Of a stretch of 34,109 bases of DNA, positions 2,270 through 30,585 are shown one piece after another. The DNA is taken from contig JAILRI010000019.1 in NCBI GenBank assembly GCA_024698555.1, forward strand, positions 1 to 34,109, read 5' to 3'. This stretch comes from Lachnospiraceae bacterium. Its GTDB lineage: Bacteria; Bacillota; Clostridia; Lachnospirales; Lachnospiraceae. Below the pieces are notes generated by a model, which was not told the origin of the DNA, searched no databases, and was given only the letters and a program-made list of their open reading frames with translations. Positions within the stretch are counted from its first letter, which is position 1, and every line of letters begins with the position of its first letter. Both the position numbers and the translations under genes were made by a program.

Positions 2270-3461
2270 AGTCCTTATCCTCCCTCATGATCCCAAGCAT
2301 TATCTCTGCTAGTTCGGGATCAAACTGGGTCCCCCTTCCCTTCTCGAGTTCCTGTTGAACTATATCCTGCGGCATATATTGTCTGTAGCTGCGGTTACTG
2401 GTCATTGCGTCATACGCGTCCGCCACCCCGATGATCCTGGCAGAAAGAGGTATCTCATCTCCTTTCAGGCCATCCGGATAGCCTTTCCCGTCGTAACGCT
2501 CATGATGCCATCTGGCTCCGATCCCGATATCCCTGATCTCCGGCATCTCCGAAAGGATCTCGTATCCTATGGACGGATGTCCTTTGATTATGTTATACTC
2601 CTCTTCGGTCAGTTTGGTCTTTTTGTTTATGATATCATCCGGAACGCCTATCTTGCCGATATCATGGAGCATTGCCATCTTTTTTATCTCATCTGTTTCC
2701 GTCTCGCCAAGTCCCAGCCTCTTGGCGATCATCTCGGAATAGTCGGCTACGCGCATGGAATGACCTTTCGTGTACTTATCCTTTGCGTCGATGGTTTTGG
2801 CCAGAGTATACATGGACTGCAGTGTGATCCTCTCATTTGCCTGTTCCAGGAACATATTGGCTTCATCGAGTTCCTTCTTTTTCTTCTCGTAAGCGCGGCT
2901 CTGATATTTGATAATGATCCCGAAGATCAGGGACACCAGGATCAGTGACTGTATCACATCTACCGCTGCGGCATGTTCCGAATCAAACAGGGTCACCGAT
3001 TCGGGATGCCGCTCACTGTAAAGGATACACCCGCACTGGAACAAAAGTCCCAGACCATAGATCACATACAGGATCTTTCTGCGTATCACCACCCAGCTGA
3101 TCACCAGACTGAGAAGCAGCCACAGGGGCATGCCTCCCTGGTATCCTCCCGATGAAAAATACATGAGGGGAAACATCACAAAATTTGCAACGACTGAAAA
3201 AAGTACCGCGGCGTAGATCACATCCTTCGATTTAAGCGAAATTATAAGACAGATGATAGCAAATACGCACGTGATCAGGATAGCCGCTATAGCCATCGGT
3301 GAACTTTCGATAAATATGGAAACGACCGCGGATACCAGTGCTCCCACTATGGCGATAACAACCGCTATATTGAGCAGCTGCTGCCACAGGTCATGTCCCC
3401 CGATCAAAACATCATACAGCTTTTTATAAACAGCTTTTATCTTATCTAAAAACGTTTTCAT
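2250..3461 (-). CDS. Membrane-anchored HD-GYP domain phosphodiesterase-like protein
   Basis: N-terminal TM segments; HDIGKIGVPDDIINKKTKLTEEE..HPSIGYEIL..HHERYDGKGYPDGLKGDEIPLSARIIGVADAYDAMTS. Confidence 0.92.
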   Translation of the reverse strand: MKTFLDKIKAVYKKLYDVLIGGHDLWQQLLNIAVVIAIVGALVSAVVSIFIESSPMAIAAILITCVFAIICLIISLKSKDVIYAAVLFSVVANFVMFPLMYFSSGGYQGGMPLWLLLSLVISWVVIRRKILYVIYGLGLLFQCGCILYSERHPESVTLFDSEHAAAVDVIQSLILVSLIFGIIIKYQSRAYEKKKKELDEANMFLEQANERITLQSMYTLAKTIDAKDKYTKGHSMRVADYSEMIAKRLGLGETETDEIKKMAMLHDIGKIGVPDDIINKKTKLTEEEYNIIKGHPSIGYEILSEMPEIRDIGIGARWHHERYDGKGYPDGLKGDEIPLSARIIGVADAYDAMTSNRSYRQYMPQDIVQQELEKGRGTQFDPELAEIMLGIMREDKDYELREH

Positions 3462-3491
3462 GTTCACCCTTCCAAATCAGAAATATATGAT

Positions 3492-5681
3492 TTACAGCCA
3501 AAGCTTGAATTTATGCCAGAAGTATGTTCTGCCATATTGGTCCTTCATAAGGTCATCCAAAGTTTTGCGGCATTCAAACATGCGCAGAGTATCCTCAGCT
3601 GTGGGAGTCACGCTCCCGTAGGCAAATGCTTCATAAGCTTCGATGCACTGTTCAAATCCGGGAATATCAGCCCTTGCGGAAAACTCTGACAGCGTTTCCG
3701 CAGGTTCCTTTTTCACACCGAGTTCCGTAAGATATCTCATGACCATTTCATACTCACGGCAGAAACGCTCCTGTTCATCCATAGTGGAAAGCTTCCGCCT
3801 TTTTATCAGTATCCGTGCCAGGAAAAGCAAGGCCAGGCTGACCACAGCCACTCCGGTGATCATTAGCATCATCATCACCGGAACACTGAATCCTCCGGTC
3901 TCGTCCTCAGACTCCGGTTCCTCATCGGGAATCTGCACGGAAACGCCCTCCCGGCCGGTCTCGGTACGGCTATAGTCCCTGATCTGTCCGGAGCTTACTT
4001 CCCATCCGGCGTATCTTTCACCGTCCATGCCGGGCGTGGGTTCAAACGGGATCCATCCCTTGCCTTTAAAATATACTTCCGGCCAGGTATGTCCGGTATC
4101 GTCCGTGATCACGACTGTTTCTCCGGCATTCACCCGCACCTTATACCCTTGAATGACTCTTGCGGGATACCCCATATGTCTGGCAAGGATGCAAAAAGCG
4201 GTAGCGAAATGTACACAGTAACCCTCTCTTTTTTCCATTAGAAAATAATCGAGAAAATCACCCTCGCTCTTCACGTAAGTCGGCAAACTCCCTGTATTCA
4301 GTTCATACGGAAAATCTGAAAGTCCTTCTTCAACGGCAAGGAGCTGTTCGTAACCTGTCTCTTTTCCTTTGATCACTGATTCCAGCCAGTTTTTGACCGG
4401 TGTGCTTATCTCAGGTTCCGAAACATAATTCCTGTACACATATTCCCTGTATCCGTCCATACCGTCGTATTTAAGCTTTTCCGGATCAACAGGTTCATTC
4501 ATGTACTCAGTAAATACCGTATTTCCATAATTCATCTGCAGATAAGTGACCGAATACCCTTCCCCGTAAGTTGCCCGGTCATTAAAAAGCAGATGTTCAT
4601 TTTCACCATAGGTCTTTTTATTGGTTGAAATGTCAGCAAATGACGTAAGCTTTGCCGGAGAAAACACGATCGGAGAGATAATGTCCAGAAACCTTATCAT
4701 TACGGACGCTTCCCTGACCAGCGAATCGTACGGCACCTTTTCATACCCGTCAACACCCCTGCGAGTCTCCACCGCGTCCGTCATAGTGTAATTATCCCGT
4801 TCCGTCAGGGTATTATGCCAGGCTCCGTCAGAAAAACGGTTAAAGATCTCACCTCTTAAGTACAAGCTCCCGATCGCTCCTCCATTTACCTTTGCTTCAA
4901 ACAGTTCGCTGTTGTTACGATCGTTGTTATAGGTCATCCGCTCATCCATGCCGAATGTAACGGAAAAATACTCGGAATCAAGCTTTCCGTATCGGGTGGT
5001 AAGCCCGTGTACGAGTTTTTCTATCTGTTCCGTTGCCTTATCATAAAGCCTGACCACCCATTTCCAGCTGATAGGCTTTTCGGGCTTCGGAAGCATGAGC
5101 ATGAACAGCCCGAACCCCATCAGAAATGGCAGCAGAAAAACCACATACTTTCTCGTTCTCTTCAGATCCCTGCTGCTGATCCCGTCCCGCAGCAGCCGTA
5201 CTGCTGCAGCCAGTACATAAACACAGACCAGCACCGGAGAAGCCGCATGGATATCAAGCTCCATGACCATTCCCGATATCAGGTAGATGAGCGCTCCTCC
5301 CGCCAGCAGTATATTTAACGGCATGAAGCGGTCACAGGCTATAAATGCGGTAAATGCCGCCAGCCCGATAAGTATGAGACTGAATGTCGTGCTTTCCATC
5401 ATCGCGGGGATATCGTTCTTATCCGCAGCCAGATAAAACACGATCCCAACCAGCAGCAGCGCCGGAAGGATAAACAGTTTCACCCTGCGATAGAGCAGTA
5501 TGAGGGCATTTAAGGAGATGCCTGTCACGATCACGGTAATGATATTGCCTGCCGTGATCAGCTCATCATCCACTGTGTGATATATCTCGAAAAACACGAA
5601 CAACGCTATCAAAGCGGTAAATACCGACCTGAAAATCAGTTCTTGGAGTTCATCCGGAAGTGAAAAAAAATCTTCTTTCAA
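3492..5681 (-). CDS. Transglutaminase-like (TGc) domain membrane protein
   Basis: Multiple N-terminal TMs; catalytic-type triad context EGYCVHFATAFCILARHMGYPARVIQGY..DDTGHTWPEVYFKGKGWIPFEPTPG; C-terminal TM and DUF4129-like tail. Confidence 0.9.
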   Translation of the reverse strand: MKEDFFSLPDELQELIFRSVFTALIALFVFFEIYHTVDDELITAGNIITVIVTGISLNALILLYRRVKLFILPALLLVGIVFYLAADKNDIPAMMESTTFSLILIGLAAFTAFIACDRFMPLNILLAGGALIYLISGMVMELDIHAASPVLVCVYVLAAAVRLLRDGISSRDLKRTRKYVVFLLPFLMGFGLFMLMLPKPEKPISWKWVVRLYDKATEQIEKLVHGLTTRYGKLDSEYFSVTFGMDERMTYNNDRNNSELFEAKVNGGAIGSLYLRGEIFNRFSDGAWHNTLTERDNYTMTDAVETRRGVDGYEKVPYDSLVREASVMIRFLDIISPIVFSPAKLTSFADISTNKKTYGENEHLLFNDRATYGEGYSVTYLQMNYGNTVFTEYMNEPVDPEKLKYDGMDGYREYVYRNYVSEPEISTPVKNWLESVIKGKETGYEQLLAVEEGLSDFPYELNTGSLPTYVKSEGDFLDYFLMEKREGYCVHFATAFCILARHMGYPARVIQGYKVRVNAGETVVITDDTGHTWPEVYFKGKGWIPFEPTPGMDGERYAGWEVSSGQIRDYSRTETGREGVSVQIPDEEPESEDETGGFSVPVMMMLMITGVAVVSLALLFLARILIKRRKLSTMDEQERFCREYEMVMRYLTELGVKKEPAETLSEFSARADIPGFEQCIEAYEAFAYGSVTPTAEDTLRMFECRKTLDDLMKDQYGRTYFWHKFKLWL

Positions 5682-5705
5682 TGCTGTACTACCTTCTCAC
5701 TGTCA

Positions 5706-6899
5706 TCAAAGCACTTTGGCAAGTTCATCCTCAGGATGGACCGCTGTCACCGTCTGTCCGGGAAATGTGATGATCCCGGCCGTATCGGGCTCATAACCGA
5801 TATAATAGATCACACAGGGCGTCCCGCTTTTGAAGAATGTGTTCAGTGTTTCATTCAGCTCCCTGCTGCTGCCTGTTATAACCATAAACACCATCAGGCT
5901 GCTCCTGAATACGGGATCCTCTGACATCATCAGCGCAGCCCGCCGGGAAGCATCGTCGTTTCTGAATGGGATAGCTGATATCTGTGCATGAAAGCGTTCC
6001 ATGTCCCGGCTTCCCGTACAGGCAGCTTCATTAAGCCCGCATCCCGGTTCTGAAGCGTTTTCCGCTCCGACTCTGTAATATCTGCAAACACTCGGGATCG
6101 CTAAAGACGCGTAATAATTCGCGACAGCGAGGACTGTCTCCAGACACTTGTTTTCAACCGGAATATAGACATACTCATCATCCGATATCCTGTCAGTATC
6201 GAGAAAGATTGCAATTCCCTGCCTTTCTTCACCTATCCTCAACCTGCTCATAAGTTTGCCCGTTCTGGCAGTAAGCTTCTGATGGATTCCCTTTACAGGG
6301 TCACCCGGAACATATTCTCTCACGCTTGCGTCAAAATCCTGCTGCATACCGCTTTTTTCCTTATACGAGCTGAGCAGCGCGTCTGTCTGCGCCCGTAGGG
6401 ATGTAAGTTTCACGATACGCGGCGAAACCACGGCACTGATCGGTTCAGGCACATGGTATGTGATACTGAACAGCTTCAGATAATCGGTAATAGTGATCTT
6501 CCGGATCCCGACCTTATATTCACCTCTGTAACGGCATATAAGCCTTGTTTCATATCTGGCGCTCTCATAGGGGAGCAGTTCATATTCCTTATCCTCAGGC
6601 ATCTTTTCTATATATGAAAAGGTGGAATACATCGTAGTCCTGATATGGCAGAAATTCATCAGGTACTCATTCTGCAGCACAAAATAATATTCCACGGGTT
6701 CATACGCAGTAATATGCTTGCTCTGAACCACCTGATATATTTTGAAGAGCAGGAATACCACCAGCAGATAAATATACGATACAGGCGCTATAAGAAGCAG
6801 ACCGAACAGTATTGAGTAACTGACCGGTCCGCCGTAAAAGCTCGCCAGGATCACGGCGAGAATGCAGAAACAGTAATATATAACGCGGTTTCTTCTCAT
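5706..6899 (-). CDS. DUF58 family protein
   Basis: Two N-terminal TMs, YVPGDPVKGIHQKLTARTGKLMSR motif; start overlaps the moxR-type gene stop (ATGA). Confidence 0.85.
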   Translation of the reverse strand: MRRNRVIYYCFCILAVILASFYGGPVSYSILFGLLLIAPVSYIYLLVVFLLFKIYQVVQSKHITAYEPVEYYFVLQNEYLMNFCHIRTTMYSTFSYIEKMPEDKEYELLPYESARYETRLICRYRGEYKVGIRKITITDYLKLFSITYHVPEPISAVVSPRIVKLTSLRAQTDALLSSYKEKSGMQQDFDASVREYVPGDPVKGIHQKLTARTGKLMSRLRIGEERQGIAIFLDTDRISDDEYVYIPVENKCLETVLAVANYYASLAIPSVCRYYRVGAENASEPGCGLNEAACTGSRDMERFHAQISAIPFRNDDASRRAALMMSEDPVFRSSLMVFMVITGSSRELNETLNTFFKSGTPCVIYYIGYEPDTAGIITFPGQTVTAVHPEDELAKVL

Positions 6900-7834
6900 A
6901 CAGGTACTTCCACCCTTGACACCAGTCCCCGTAACAGCGTTTCAGGATCTTCCTGCGCCATCCTTGCTTCTACGGACAGGATCAGTCTGTGCAGTAACAC
7001 AGGAACGTAAAGCGCTTTCACATCATCGGGTTTGGCCCAGTCGCGTCCGTCCATCAGCGCATGTGCCTGAACCGCGCGTATCAGCGCAAGCATAGCCCTG
7101 GGGCTCGCCCCTGTCACGTAACGCTTCTCCTTCCGGGTAGCCGCGATTATGTTATAAATATATCCCAGAACCTTGTCGGAAACCTTAACCTCCTGCGCCT
7201 TTTTCTGAAGTTCTTCTATATCGGCGGCTGAACAGATATTTTGAAGTTCACCTGCCCGTCGTCCGCTCATAAACATGTCCGCAAGCTTTAGTTCATCCTC
7301 CTTCGAGGGATATCCTATGGAGAGTTTCATCATAAAGCGGTCCAGCTGAGCCTCGGGCAGAGGATACGTCCCGGCAAATTCGATGGGGTTCTGGGTAGCA
7401 ATGACCATAAATATCCCTTCTATCGGATATACAGCCCCATCCGCAGTCACGCTTTTCTCCTGCATCACTTCCAACAGCGCCGACTGCGTCTTGGGCGGCG
7501 TTCTGTTGATCTCGTCCGCCAGGAAGATGTTGTTCATCACCGGTCCGGGCTTAAATTCAAACTGCTTCGATGCCTGATTGTATATTGACAGTCCGGTGAT
7601 ATCCGACGGCAAAGTATCCGGCGAAAAAGAAACTCTTCCGAAGGAACAGTTTATGGAATGTGACAGTGCCAGCGCAAGAGTGGTCTTCCCCACACCGGGA
7701 ACGTCTTCAAACAGAATATGGCCTCCGGCCAGAAGACAGCATATGCTCAGATCCACTACTCTGGCACTTCCGACAAAGACTGTGTAGATATTATCCTTGA
7801 GTTTTTCGATCATCTCGGCATTTTCCAGCGCCAT
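6896..7834 (-). CDS. MoxR-family AAA+ ATPase
   Basis: GGHILFEDVPGVGKTTLALALS, FLADEINRTPPKTQSALLEVMQEKSVTADG, MVIATQNPIEFAGTYPLPEAQLDRFMMKLSIGYP. Confidence 0.97.
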   Translation of the reverse strand: MALENAEMIEKLKDNIYTVFVGSARVVDLSICCLLAGGHILFEDVPGVGKTTLALALSHSINCSFGRVSFSPDTLPSDITGLSIYNQASKQFEFKPGPVMNNIFLADEINRTPPKTQSALLEVMQEKSVTADGAVYPIEGIFMVIATQNPIEFAGTYPLPEAQLDRFMMKLSIGYPSKEDELKLADMFMSGRRAGELQNICSAADIEELQKKAQEVKVSDKVLGYIYNIIAATRKEKRYVTGASPRAMLALIRAVQAHALMDGRDWAKPDDVKALYVPVLLHRLILSVEARMAQEDPETLLRGLVSRVEVPV

Positions 7835-7934: not shown

Positions 7935-8831
7935 TCACTGCGGCTGTGAGACATCATTGCCTTCATCATCCGAAATATGAACGACCTCCACATCCTTAAG
8001 CGGAGCACCGCATTCCTGGCAGAATACGGCGGTTGCAAAACACTTCGTGCCGCAGCAGGGACAGAATTTGAATTCCTTAAGATCACTGTCCGCTCCGTTT
8101 CCCGCCGCTGAAGGTTCTGGAGCCTGAGGCACCTGCTGCGCGAACTGCTGCATAAGCGACATCCCGCCGTTGTTCATCATATTGGGTCCGGCATATGCCA
8201 TCAGCATGATATTCTGGTTGTTCATCTGAACGGGACCGGCATAAACCGCGGCAATTATACGGGGATCACGGTCCGGATTCTGCTTTATGAAGGCTTCCAA
8301 AGCTTCCTCCTTTGTCATACCCATAAAGCCCGTGCTCTTATCTTTCTCATATTCCGAACCGGCATATACCATGTTGAAGCGCGCAGTCGGATCGGGATCT
8401 GATCCGGGTTCAGTACCACCATCGTTCGTATCAGATCCATCAGACACTTTGCCTGCTTCAGGAGCATCCCCGTCGGGCTCCCCGCATGCTTCGGGAGCAT
8501 CATCGTCAGGCTCATCGCATACTTCGGGTTCATCATATTCTTCAGGCTCTTCAGGCGGTCCCATGTACACGTCCTCCATCTCAGAAGGCCTGGATGTCCG
8601 TTTCTTCATCATTTCGGGACCGGCATAAACGCACTTCATCGATTTTCTTTCATTTTCAAAATATCCGGGTCCTGCATATACTTTTCCCATCGGCTTCCGT
8701 TTATTCCGGATTTCTTCGGGACCGGCATACACTCCCTCCATGCTCTTAGGATCCGCGTTCGGCTTCTTCGGATCCCGGTTTACACGCCCGGGGTACTTTT
8801 CCCCAAACAGATTTTTAAAGAAATTTTTCAT
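7935..8831 (-). CDS. Hypothetical protein with seven VYAGP-type repeats, an acidic linker and a C-terminal zinc ribbon
   Basis: VYAGPEEI, VYAGPGYF, VYAGPEMM, VYMGPPEE, VYAGSEYE, VYAGPVQM, AYAGPNMM; CPCCGTKC-x7-CQECGAPL; start MKNFF chosen because SD GGAG lies 6 nt upstream (ORF could open further upstream). Confidence 0.8.
   Translation of the reverse strand: MKNFFKNLFGEKYPGRVNRDPKKPNADPKSMEGVYAGPEEIRNKRKPMGKVYAGPGYFENERKSMKCVYAGPEMMKKRTSRPSEMEDVYMGPPEEPEEYDEPEVCDEPDDDAPEACGEPDGDAPEAGKVSDGSDTNDGGTEPGSDPDPTARFNMVYAGSEYEKDKSTGFMGMTKEEALEAFIKQNPDRDPRIIAAVYAGPVQMNNQNIMLMAYAGPNMMNNGGMSLMQQFAQQVPQAPEPSAAGNGADSDLKEFKFCPCCGTKCFATAVFCQECGAPLKDVEVVHISDDEGNDVSQPQ
8455..8553. repeat. About three imperfect 33-bp tandem repeats encoding an acidic 11-aa unit
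   Basis: GCTTCAGGAGCATCCCCGTCGGGCTCCCCGCAT / GCTTCGGGAGCATCATCGTCAGGCTCATCGCAT / ACTTCGGGTTCATCATATTCTTCAGGCTCTTCA. Confidence 0.75.
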
Positions 8832-9039
8832 ATCGGTCTCCTGACTGTATAATCGCTCACTGTGTTCCGTCATCATAAGTGTACCCCAAACATGCCGAAA
8901 TATCAATAAAAATATGGTTTTACAGCATCTGTTTTTCGTTATTATTTATATATGGATTTTCATTTTCATAAATTATATAATAGCGTTTATTCGGAGTTCA
9001 TCCGTGTGAAAAACAATGAACCCGGCATGGAGGATAAAA

Positions 9040-27229: not shown

Positions 27230-30200
27230 TCAATACCAGTCAGGCTTAGAGATACTCTCGTCAATATACGCCTTCTTGTCCGCGCCCACAGTGAAGCTCA
27301 CCTCTACCGATACTTCCTCGCCGTTCGTTTCACCTAGGTCTTTATATCTATATGTAGCGGTAAATGTATCGCCTATCTCGGCATTTATTATCCTTGCTCC
27401 GTCACCGCCTGCCGCGTTCATGGACAGACCGTTGTTGTTTATGCGGTATGAGCCTGTAGTGCTGTTGTAATCGGCATAAAGAGCATCCTTGTTCTCCTGA
27501 TATGCGGATAGTTCAATGATTATATCCTCATTTTTGATCTTCTTTGTCTTTCCGTAATTATCTGTTCCCCTCTTATAACCGCTGCCTGAGCTTCTCAGCG
27601 CCTCTATCAGGAATCCGGCCGTGATCACGCCGTTTTCAGCGCTGATGTAGGCCTTTTTCTTCGAGGTACTGATCCATTTTACATGTTTGGAAGAGGTGGT
27701 GGCGGTATTCAGCTTTTCCAGCTTACGGTTGAAATTACCGACTTCTTTGGTGATAGAGGCGGAACCCGCAGTCATATCCAGGTCTATCGCGCCTCCGGAA
27801 AGACTGCAGACCCTGGCCTCGATCTGAACCTCAAGGAGCCTGTCGGGATGGGTTCCGTCAGGTTTTGTCGCGGAATAATCAAGGAATGTATCATAAGTAC
27901 CGGGCAATCCGGTGGATACAGCATAGTTCGGGTACCAGTTAAAAGCAGAGTCTCCCCGGTCGTAATAATTTATAGCTGCCACAGAAACGGTATTGACAGT
28001 CATTTCAGGAATATAATATTTTACATATCTGTTGGGCACCTTCACTTCTGTTCCGTCGCTTAAACCGCCATACACCGTAAATTCGGATTCATCGCTGCTG
28101 TCCGCGTTTTTCAATGTATAGCTGTTTTTGCATTTGAGGGTAAAGCTGCTGAATGCGGTCACGTCAAGCAGGCCTAAGGGTATTTTTTTCCTGCTGCCGT
28201 TGACCTCTTTCCCGTCCGCGTCAAAAAGAGCAAACTCAATGTATGTGGTATCACTCCGCGAAACGGCGTTATCCTTTACGGTAACTGCGAAATAAGATAC
28301 TTTTGAAGCATTGTTGGGAGCTATACTGATCAGGGAAGCATCATAGTCCGTGACTTTTACAGTGCAACCCGTCGGACGGGATTCACAGATATATTTGTCC
28401 CCGTACTGATCGTTGTACGACAGATAGCTGTTATCATCATCCTTGTATGTATATATCCTGTAACTGCATCCATTTAGCGCGTAAGGCGCGACCACTGCCA
28501 CCATCTCACGAACTTCCACAGGTTTCCTCTTCTGTCTTACCTCCATCATGAGGCCTTCATTATGTCCGTTATTAAGGACAGTAGCTGACAGATAAACGGG
28601 GACGGAAACAATCTCGGTTGCCCCAAGGTTTGTGGGCGTATATAACAGCTTCGCGGTTCCGTCGTTGTTCTCGACCAGCTTCAGTCCTTTGCCCGAAAGT
28701 CTGACAGCTCCGGCCAGATCGCTGAATTCGGTAACAGGTTCACCTTCTGCATCGAAAGCCTCAAAATCCAGAACATACGCATCCGAATCCCCTGCGTCCG
28801 ATGCCAGTTCCGTAATAATATCACCGCAGGGAAGGATACGGAAGATATCCAGAACCTGTCCGCCCGCCAGTTTCAGGGTATATGAAGTATCGCCTCCGGT
28901 CTTCGAGGATATGAACCGTACGGATACCTTTCCGCCGTTTTTGGCGTAAAACCCGGGTGTTACCACCGCATACGCGTATTCCTCTCCTTCAATGATCACA
29001 CAGCTGCCGTCATATGAAATACCGGCGGTCAGCTGATCCAGACTCGTCACAGTCAGATTGTCAGCCTGAGTCTTACTGTAAGGCATGTCAAATCCAAGTG
29101 AATCCAGCAGCTTAAAATATATACCGTACTCACCTTTCTTAAAGTTTGCGGGAACCTTTTTGACGATTTTCTTTGTCTCAAGCTCCACTATGCCCATCAC
29201 CTCGACCTTATCGACAAAACGGGTGAAGCCTGCGGTAAACTGCGCGTTCGCGGTTACAACATTGCCCGCGGTGCCTGTATGCACTCCTGTAAGCACCACC
29301 GTCCGGCCAAACTGCAGGCCGTCGCCGGCGGCATCTTTAAATTCAAGTATTCCCCTGTTCCTGTCCTCTCCGGCCAGTATGCCGAATGACGAAGTCCATG
29401 ATACCGAAAAACGTTTGCGAGCCGATTCGCCATATTGATTCAGTATATCATAGTGAACATATACCGATTTGCGGTCATCGCTCATGAGCGCACTCTGTCC
29501 GTTTTCAGCTATAACTATTTCTTCCGCGCGTTCATCCTGTGCCTCAAAAGAAGCCGAATGCACACCGTCTGATACCGTATACGCAGCTTCACTTATGCGG
29601 CCCGCAAGTGTCAGAGTAGCCGAATCTCCATCCTTTGACGCGGAGATCTCACTTATTTCCACTTCTGTGTTTCCCCTCTTTACGGAAAAAGGAGTTTCTG
29701 AAGTGAATCCATCCCCGGTAACCTTAATTGTATATACCCCTGCAGGCTCCGCCGAAAAAGCGGGCTTGGGGGCTTTAGTCTTTATCACGATCTGAGCCGA
29801 AGCGGTAGTTCCGGGCTTCTTCTCACTTTGGAAGGCCTCACCTGTCAGGGTATATTCGCTCTCGGCATTGAATTTTATGGTCCACAGGCGGTTCCCGGTG
29901 CTTTTAGCCAGCTTGTCGGTTACGTCCTTGCCCTTTGCGTTCGTGATCACGAGCCTTCTCAGATCGGTATCCATTTTTACGCCGTCCCTGCTTCGAGGCA
30001 GGGACAGTTCATACTCCACTCCCGTTTCAAATACCTTTTCAGAGATATCTCCCGAAAAATCACGACCGAAATAAACCTCCCGGGCATGCTTTTTCACCAC
30101 GATCCGCACATCTGTCTTAAATGAATCACAGGTAAGGGTGATCGTGGCCGAGCCCATGCCGGAAGCAGTTACTTTTCTGACTGAATCATCGCAGAGCGCG

Positions 30201-30451
30201 ACCGAATCATCGGATGAAACGGCAGTCACTTTCAGCTTCTTTGCCTGTTTCCTGGTTATGCCCAGCAATTTCGCGTACCTGATGCTGTCTTTGGATTTTG
30301 TTTTTCCCTGATCCGAGTCCATACCACCGGTACTTAAGTACAGTACCTTCTTCTCCACGGGTTTTATATCTGTACCCGCATTGGCTGTCCTGTTACCTGT
30401 CATCAGTATTATCAATATCATTAACGCAACTATGCTTATAATTTTTTTCAT
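27230..30451 (-). CDS. Large secreted/cell-surface protein, probably with bacterial Ig-like domains
   Basis: Signal peptide MKKIISIVALMILIILMTGNRTANA; beta-rich Big_2-like segments (LKVTAVSSDDSVALCDDSVRKVTASGMGSATITLTC); no LPxTG motif seen at C-terminus. Confidence 0.8.
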   Translation of the reverse strand: MKKIISIVALMILIILMTGNRTANAGTDIKPVEKKVLYLSTGGMDSDQGKTKSKDSIRYAKLLGITRKQAKKLKVTAVSSDDSVALCDDSVRKVTASGMGSATITLTCDSFKTDVRIVVKKHAREVYFGRDFSGDISEKVFETGVEYELSLPRSRDGVKMDTDLRRLVITNAKGKDVTDKLAKSTGNRLWTIKFNAESEYTLTGEAFQSEKKPGTTASAQIVIKTKAPKPAFSAEPAGVYTIKVTGDGFTSETPFSVKRGNTEVEISEISASKDGDSATLTLAGRISEAAYTVSDGVHSASFEAQDERAEEIVIAENGQSALMSDDRKSVYVHYDILNQYGESARKRFSVSWTSSFGILAGEDRNRGILEFKDAAGDGLQFGRTVVLTGVHTGTAGNVVTANAQFTAGFTRFVDKVEVMGIVELETKKIVKKVPANFKKGEYGIYFKLLDSLGFDMPYSKTQADNLTVTSLDQLTAGISYDGSCVIIEGEEYAYAVVTPGFYAKNGGKVSVRFISSKTGGDTSYTLKLAGGQVLDIFRILPCGDIITELASDAGDSDAYVLDFEAFDAEGEPVTEFSDLAGAVRLSGKGLKLVENNDGTAKLLYTPTNLGATEIVSVPVYLSATVLNNGHNEGLMMEVRQKRKPVEVREMVAVVAPYALNGCSYRIYTYKDDDNSYLSYNDQYGDKYICESRPTGCTVKVTDYDASLISIAPNNASKVSYFAVTVKDNAVSRSDTTYIEFALFDADGKEVNGSRKKIPLGLLDVTAFSSFTLKCKNSYTLKNADSSDESEFTVYGGLSDGTEVKVPNRYVKYYIPEMTVNTVSVAAINYYDRGDSAFNWYPNYAVSTGLPGTYDTFLDYSATKPDGTHPDRLLEVQIEARVCSLSGGAIDLDMTAGSASITKEVGNFNRKLEKLNTATTSSKHVKWISTSKKKAYISAENGVITAGFLIEALRSSGSGYKRGTDNYGKTKKIKNEDIIIELSAYQENKDALYADYNSTTGSYRINNNGLSMNAAGGDGARIINAEIGDTFTATYRYKDLGETNGEEVSVEVSFTVGADKKAYIDESISKPDWY

Positions 30452-30585
30452 GATATCCGCAGATCCTTCCATATACTCATTCGGGAATCATTCTCTTCCT
30501 GTCCCGATATAGAATGATAGCATGAAAGAGAAAAAATGTAAACATTTTTGCCGTTCCCTCCAAAACGTGGTATAGTGATATGTGA

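Follow-up and report, generated by a model that had tools for sequence, protein, structure and literature searches.

The window analysed here, the whole 34,109-nucleotide stretch of contig JAILRI010000019.1 from a Lachnospiraceae bacterium (GCA_024698555.1), encodes a protein with seven dispersed VYAGP-type repeats, and the question is what these repeats are for. From sequence comparison we consider it probable that a Tyr-directed radical SAM/SPASM enzyme modifies the protein at several sites.

The features of the gene and its product are listed in Table 1. The start codon is the ATG at 8831, and AGGAG lies six bases upstream of it; the TTG at 8906 merely begins the longest open reading frame. 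Translation and shuffling confirmed the seven repeats named in a preliminary description of this DNA: Y[AM]G[PS] occurs seven times, versus a maximum of two and a mean of 0.02 in 20,000 composition-preserving shuffles. As that description had also proposed, the repeats are held at the protein level, since codons differ between the copies (Val GTG, GTA or GTT; Gly GGT or GGA; Pro CCC or CCG). Five of the seven copies carry Met at position -4 from Tyr. The residue directly after Tyr is Gly in none of the seven. Two features had been missed, namely a second conserved motif, [KE]YPx[RN] (KYPGR in the window protein, residues 12-16), and the frequent Cys at position -2 (for example MKCVYAGPEMM). 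The protein does not belong to an already characterised family as judged by Pfam and NCBIfam, which gave nothing beyond weak zinc-ribbon and compositional matches, and by a literature text search, in which 'VYAGP' turned up in one unrelated paper.

Table 1. Features of the repeat gene and its product (coordinates in the window)
Feature	Coordinates	Strand	Residues or remark	Basis
CDS, VYAGP-repeat zinc-ribbon protein, putative multi-site radical SAM substrate	7935..8831	(-)	298 aa	translation and family comparison
Shine-Dalgarno AGGAG	8838..8842	(-)	six bases 5' of ATG at 8831	sequence
N-terminal MKNFFKNLFGEKYPGR, basic/hydrophobic, with YPx[RN] motif	8784..8831	(-)	1-16	family conservation
Repeat 1, VYAGP	8718..8732	(-)	34-38	
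Repeat 2, VYAGP	8667..8681	(-)	51-55	
Repeat 3, VYAGP, Cys at -2 (MKCVYAGPEMM)	8616..8630	(-)	68-72	
Repeat 4, VYMGP	8556..8570	(-)	88-92	
Repeat 5, VYAGS	8355..8369	(-)	155-159	
Short predicted helix in otherwise disordered chain	8253..8312	(-)	174-193	AF2 pLDDT 75-78
Repeat 6, VYAGP	8232..8246	(-)	196-200	
Repeat 7, AYAGP	8184..8198	(-)	212-216	
Four-Cys zinc ribbon	8004..8069	(-)	255-276; C257, C260, C271, C274	
				

In the AF2 model of the protein, only the zinc ribbon (C257-x2-C260 ... C271-x2-C274) is folded with high confidence; most of the remainder, repeats included, is predicted to be disordered. The C-terminal four-Cys zinc ribbon noted earlier appears to be real, judging by a pLDDT above 90 and by a homologue (L008) that clears the Pfam Zn_Ribbon_1 cut-off (33.1 versus 25 bits); the window protein itself reaches 16.8 bits against the Pfam zinc ribbons (PF13240/PF12773, cut-off 25). 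At the N-terminus, M1, K2, N3, F4, F5, L8, Y13, P14 and R16 are invariant in eight homologues. YP is present in 25 of 27 putative substrates, usually with Arg or Asn two residues on. We infer from the sequences that this YPx[RN] motif is the best candidate recognition element. An amphipathic membrane helix at the N-terminus of the window protein was rejected, as its hydrophobic moment is not significant (shuffle p 0.12).

The repeat gene is followed immediately downstream by an ordinary MoxR ATPase-DUF58-transglutaminase (DUF4129) set (window 3492-7834, minus strand), in which the DUF58 match of 17.2 bits is below the Pfam cut-off of 23.4. A role tied to these genes was rejected because they do not recur beside homologues. 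The window also holds a 1,080-aa open reading frame at 27230-30472 (minus strand) with no Pfam match at E ≤ 1e-5.

When GTDB genomes were searched with the protein sequence, six homologues emerged, all labelled Lachnospiraceae or Lachnoclostridium. They have in common the N-terminal MKNFF..L....YPxR and the V-Y-x-G-P repeats, which were found in every homologue; the conservation of the repeats is thus established. Motif number (1 to 10 copies) and spacing differ. Most homologues end in the zinc ribbon, three are short (90-125 aa) and lack it, and one locus (L012) carries two copies in tandem.

All six homologues adjoin the same radical SAM/SPASM gene. The reverse route, in which the enzyme profile alone was used outside the window's own genome, gave 18 loci, found in 13 of 397 family-level genomes (E ≤ 1e-90) and 5 of 378 class-level genomes, and all 18 have an adjacent or overlapping motif gene. 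Both routes together gave 24 loci in other genomes, many of them metagenome-assembled, and at all 24 a radical SAM/SPASM gene of this one family is adjacent to, or overlaps, a gene with the motif [V/I/L/T]Y[A/G][G/A/P]P; this tight pairing is established. Three weaker class-level matches (L078-L080) represent a 530-aa sister enzyme outside the VYAGP clade, and in a phylum-wide sample of 398 genomes (E ≤ 1e-100) the window's own genome alone matched. Strict VYAGP is found at 13 of the 18 enzyme-found loci and variants at five: TYAGP (L020), LYAAP plus VYAPP (L022), VYAAP (L027 and L030) and IYAPP (L029, where the motif gene is convergent to the enzyme gene). At L030 the motif gene adjoining the enzyme (2480-3757) encodes a kinase-like protein with an apparent FHA domain, TVYAAPGE and RPYPYSF, which suggests that signalling proteins can acquire the motif.

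In a background of 344 further neighbourhood genes (102,801 aa; genes with two or more motif copies were left out), only three contain [VI]YA[GAP]P, all of them enzyme-adjacent variants. The 397 genomes hold five coding double-VYAGP genes of this kind, each in an enzyme-positive genome. Four double-VYAGP occurrences in genomes without the enzyme were excluded by eye: a CRISPR-like array (G084), a stop between the motifs (G013), an out-of-frame pair (G256) and an RDD-like protein in which YAGPLQGGT is repeated in tandem (G262). The last of these (L036, G262:C71) is a membrane protein whose tandem repeat, YAGPLQGGTPGSDGR, is a chance look-alike of the motif. Single VYAGP sites elsewhere fall in unrelated proteins, by appearance sugar-kinase-like, ribosomal protein L13-like and glycosidase-like. 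Clustering of the neighbours revealed no third shared gene family (the enzyme at 24 loci, the next, unrelated cluster at five), no recurrent small gene and no recurrent protease or exporter/transporter gene beside the enzyme. As in RiPP systems in general, a putative precursor and its modifying enzyme are encoded together at all 24 outside loci; no genes for cleavage of a leader or for export recur there. An origin in a viral or plasmid element was rejected, since the protein is unmatched in plasmids and viral contigs hold no confirmed relative of the enzyme.

In the window's own genome (7.85% contamination) the two genes are unlinked. The enzyme orthologue, a single copy of its kind, lies on another contig (G000:C118:6741-7754) and is 82-86% identical to the enzymes at the six homologue loci (85% to that of L012). 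None of the genes near it carries the motif, and V-Y-A-[G/A/P]-P-E sites occur in this genome in the repeat protein only.

We tallied 113 motif copies from enzyme-adjacent proteins. Relative to Tyr, position -4 is Met, Ile or Phe in 75 of the 113, position -2 is Cys in 27 and position -1 is Val in 98. Ala follows at +1 in 94 copies and Gly in six, with Met, Asn and Phe also occurring; +2 is Gly in 104 and +3 is Pro in 111. Position +4 is often Glu, and +5/+6 are aromatic or Met. Tyr itself is constant in all copies, partly because the search pattern demanded it.

The family of the enzyme is established. It is about 340 aa long, carries the CX3CX2C motif of radical SAM enzymes together with the complete set of SPASM cysteines, which are invariant, and scores above the cut-offs of PF04055 (99-106 bits) and PF13186 (32-33 bits). 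For every member tested, the best NCBIfam model was TIGR04103 (nif11-class maturase 3), whose InterPro entry we take to be IPR026482, at 207-238 bits versus a cut-off of 725. The second was TIGR03913 (GDL-motif maturase), well under its cut-off, and TIGR03962 (MftC) gave 113-146 bits (cut-off 265). BLAST scores were about 160-245 bits to relatives with X-Y-[G/A/M] precursors versus 97-124 to MftC, and the nearest solved structure by sequence was SkfB. AF2 modelled the SPASM region of the enzyme poorly, and this model was left out of fold searches. In a phylogenetic tree all 24 VYAGP-type enzymes fall into a single group (95/88); only the unity of this group was used, because branches outside it are very long. 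One member (L027, G347:C20:65537-66544) has an in-frame TGA at a conserved SPASM Cys (..FLTGR-TGA-GEC..). Selenocysteine was rejected there, since G347 contains no SelB above cut-off, which makes a nonsense change or sequencing error likelier.

The annotated relatives of the enzyme on plasmids are found beside Tyr-centred precursors. A Nostoc TIGR04103 member adjoins a Nif11 precursor ending in ..IALYGLPPELF; Azospirillum and Aureibacter relatives adjoin DUF1843 proteins with LYGGA, PYGVA, MYMAT, LYAAG, MYAAS and PYGAG; and an Agathobacter rectalis relative on plasmid NZ_CP143948.1 adjoins a small open reading frame ending in ..GPVMYGTGVRM. This un-annotated frame (L102, 4704-4916) lies a short way upstream of the radical SAM gene and has the look of a precursor that annotation missed. 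The 530-aa Clostridia sister enzymes (L079 in G421, L080 in G454) go with LSDEELLDMVGG-leader precursors that carry repeated LYGIEP or LYGIKP, and these xYGI[EK]P precursors are likely multi-site splicease-type peptides. PlpX belongs to IPR026482 (PMC11002830), and PlpXY excises tyramine at X-Y-G, with MYG and LYG as natural sites and a mass change of -135.07 Da per site (PMC10533398).

We propose that the dedicated radical SAM/SPASM enzyme, encoded on the other contig in the window's own genome, would read short disordered motifs of the form [M/I/F]-x-x-V-Y-A-G-P-[E] and perform radical chemistry at the Val-Tyr pair within every copy. YPx[RN] may aid docking, and the zinc ribbon would persist, still folded, after modification. 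The VYAGP motif resembles the X-Y-G sites at which spliceases are known or predicted to act; VYAGP and VYGGP fit the pattern X-Y-[small]-x-P that they have in common with LYGLP, and we therefore favour action of the enzyme on Val-Tyr, most likely in a splicease-like manner. A splicease-like chemistry is plausible. The full version, a non-canonical protein splicing in which tyramine would be removed from many internal V-Y-A sites, instead of X-Y-G, with no recognition helper, leaving up to ten reactive alpha-keto-amides in a protein kept in the cell, is put forward tentatively and is on the doubtful side.

That the protein is a Tyr-directed substrate is supported by the gene pairing seen from both search directions, by the kinship of the enzyme, by the X-Y-[G/A/M] precursors beside the enzyme's kin and by the predicted disorder of the repeats. 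Several observations count against it: the residue after Tyr is mostly Ala, not the Gly of PlpXY sites, the TIGR04103 score of the enzyme falls far short of the cut-off, the two genes lie apart in their own genome, the constancy of Tyr is partly imposed by the search pattern, and no PqqD-type recognition domain was found in the genome, although PlpX works with PlpY.

The enzyme might act on the same Val-Tyr pair by another chemistry, namely a Val-Tyr carbon-carbon link, dehydrogenation of Tyr or, where the motif reads CVYAGP, a Cys thioether, and to this we give substantial though minority weight. SkfB is a thioether-forming enzyme, Ala after Tyr departs from PlpX, and by simple count 27 of the 38 cysteines outside the zinc ribbon sit at -2; on the other hand, just 27 of the 113 sites have this Cys. 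MftC, a more distant relative, acts on the Val-Tyr pair in ..MCGVY (review PMC8326336), but its target Tyr is C-terminal while Tyr is internal here, and bit scores put the enzyme nearer the X-Y-G group. Conserved pairing alone cannot separate a substrate from a regulator, so that the repeats could also serve a partner protein in recruiting, inhibiting or storing the enzyme, with no modification of the protein itself. This appears very improbable, as relatives use X-Y-[G/A/M] sites in precursors and the variation of motif number from 1 to 10, with variable spacing, is more like tolerated multi-site modification.

The preliminary description had offered two roles for the motifs, modification (at Tyr or Met) or binding of a partner on a scaffold or adaptor. 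The first, for Tyr, is better supported, because a dedicated radical SAM/SPASM enzyme accompanies the motif; the second found no direct support. A disordered chain with a zinc ribbon and multiple motif copies is indeed a layout typical of scaffolds, to which the enzyme would be a mere neighbour or client. We nevertheless consider a scaffold unlikely: the enzyme is the sole recurrent neighbour across several families, its relatives act on similar motifs, and no gene for a binding partner recurs. Equally improbable in our judgement is a classical RiPP precursor, whose modified VYAGP segments would be excised and leave the cell as small signalling or antimicrobial peptides. The layout of precursor and maturase, the short homologues without zinc ribbon and the tandem copies in L012 would fit such a precursor, but no protease or exporter gene recurs, a double-Gly leader is lacking, and the zinc ribbon in which most homologues end is unusual for a released peptide. 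Under the multi-site substrate reading, the modified protein would probably remain in the cell and no peptide would be released, because no maturation protease or exporter gene recurs; the zinc ribbon, together with the absence of export genes, suggests a cellular role.

The enzyme group is present in 14 of the 397 sampled Lachnospiraceae genomes and in five genomes from two further families of Clostridia. A system of this kind would add radical SAM enzymes with large multi-site protein substrates instead of small peptides. If it is splicease-like, the repeat would be a natural tag in which Ala, Met, Asn or Phe can follow Tyr, and the enzyme may need no helper protein, which would be useful for protein labelling.

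Among known systems, spliceotides (PlpA/PlpX/PlpY, TIGR04103) are alike in their enzyme, the best-scoring named family for every member tested, and in a short Tyr-centred motif with a small residue after Tyr and Pro shortly after (LYGLP in Nostoc/PlpA-type precursors versus VYAGP/VYGGP here). Unlike them, the enzyme here is far below the family cut-off, Ala mostly replaces the Gly of described PlpXY sites, and many sites lie in one large disordered zinc-ribbon protein. Neither a Nif11 nor a nitrile-hydratase-type (NHLP) leader was matched in Pfam or NCBIfam, and the own genome gave no match to a PqqD domain (PlpY-type RRE), a result that a divergent helper could escape. Because of the cut-off, the residue after Tyr, the leader and the helper, the system was not filed as a spliceotide. 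The DUF1843 or GDL-motif systems (TIGR03913) have the second-best enzyme family and X-Y-[G/A/M] precursors, so that Ala or Met after Tyr occurs there too; unlike the protein here, their precursors are small single-site paralogues without repeats or zinc ribbon, and their enzymes measure 474-516 aa versus about 340. The 530-aa Clostridia system (L079, L080) shares an enzyme about 40% identical and a motif repeated within one precursor, but that precursor is a small peptide with a double-Gly-type leader and no zinc ribbon, and its enzymes form a separate branch. Mycofactocin (MftA/MftC, TIGR03962) has a Val-Tyr target, an enzyme model of the same length (339 positions) and a precursor end, MCGVY, that resembles MxCVY. 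It has a C-terminal single site, however, and needs MftB, of which no equivalent was seen here; by its score below the cut-off and its internal VY, the VYAGP system is not mycofactocin. Judged by gene pairing, it would be a system for radical SAM modification of a protein that lacks the protease and exporter usually present, and it appears to be a new variant beside the filed spliceotides, possibly one already listed in the splicease survey of Scott et al. 2022.
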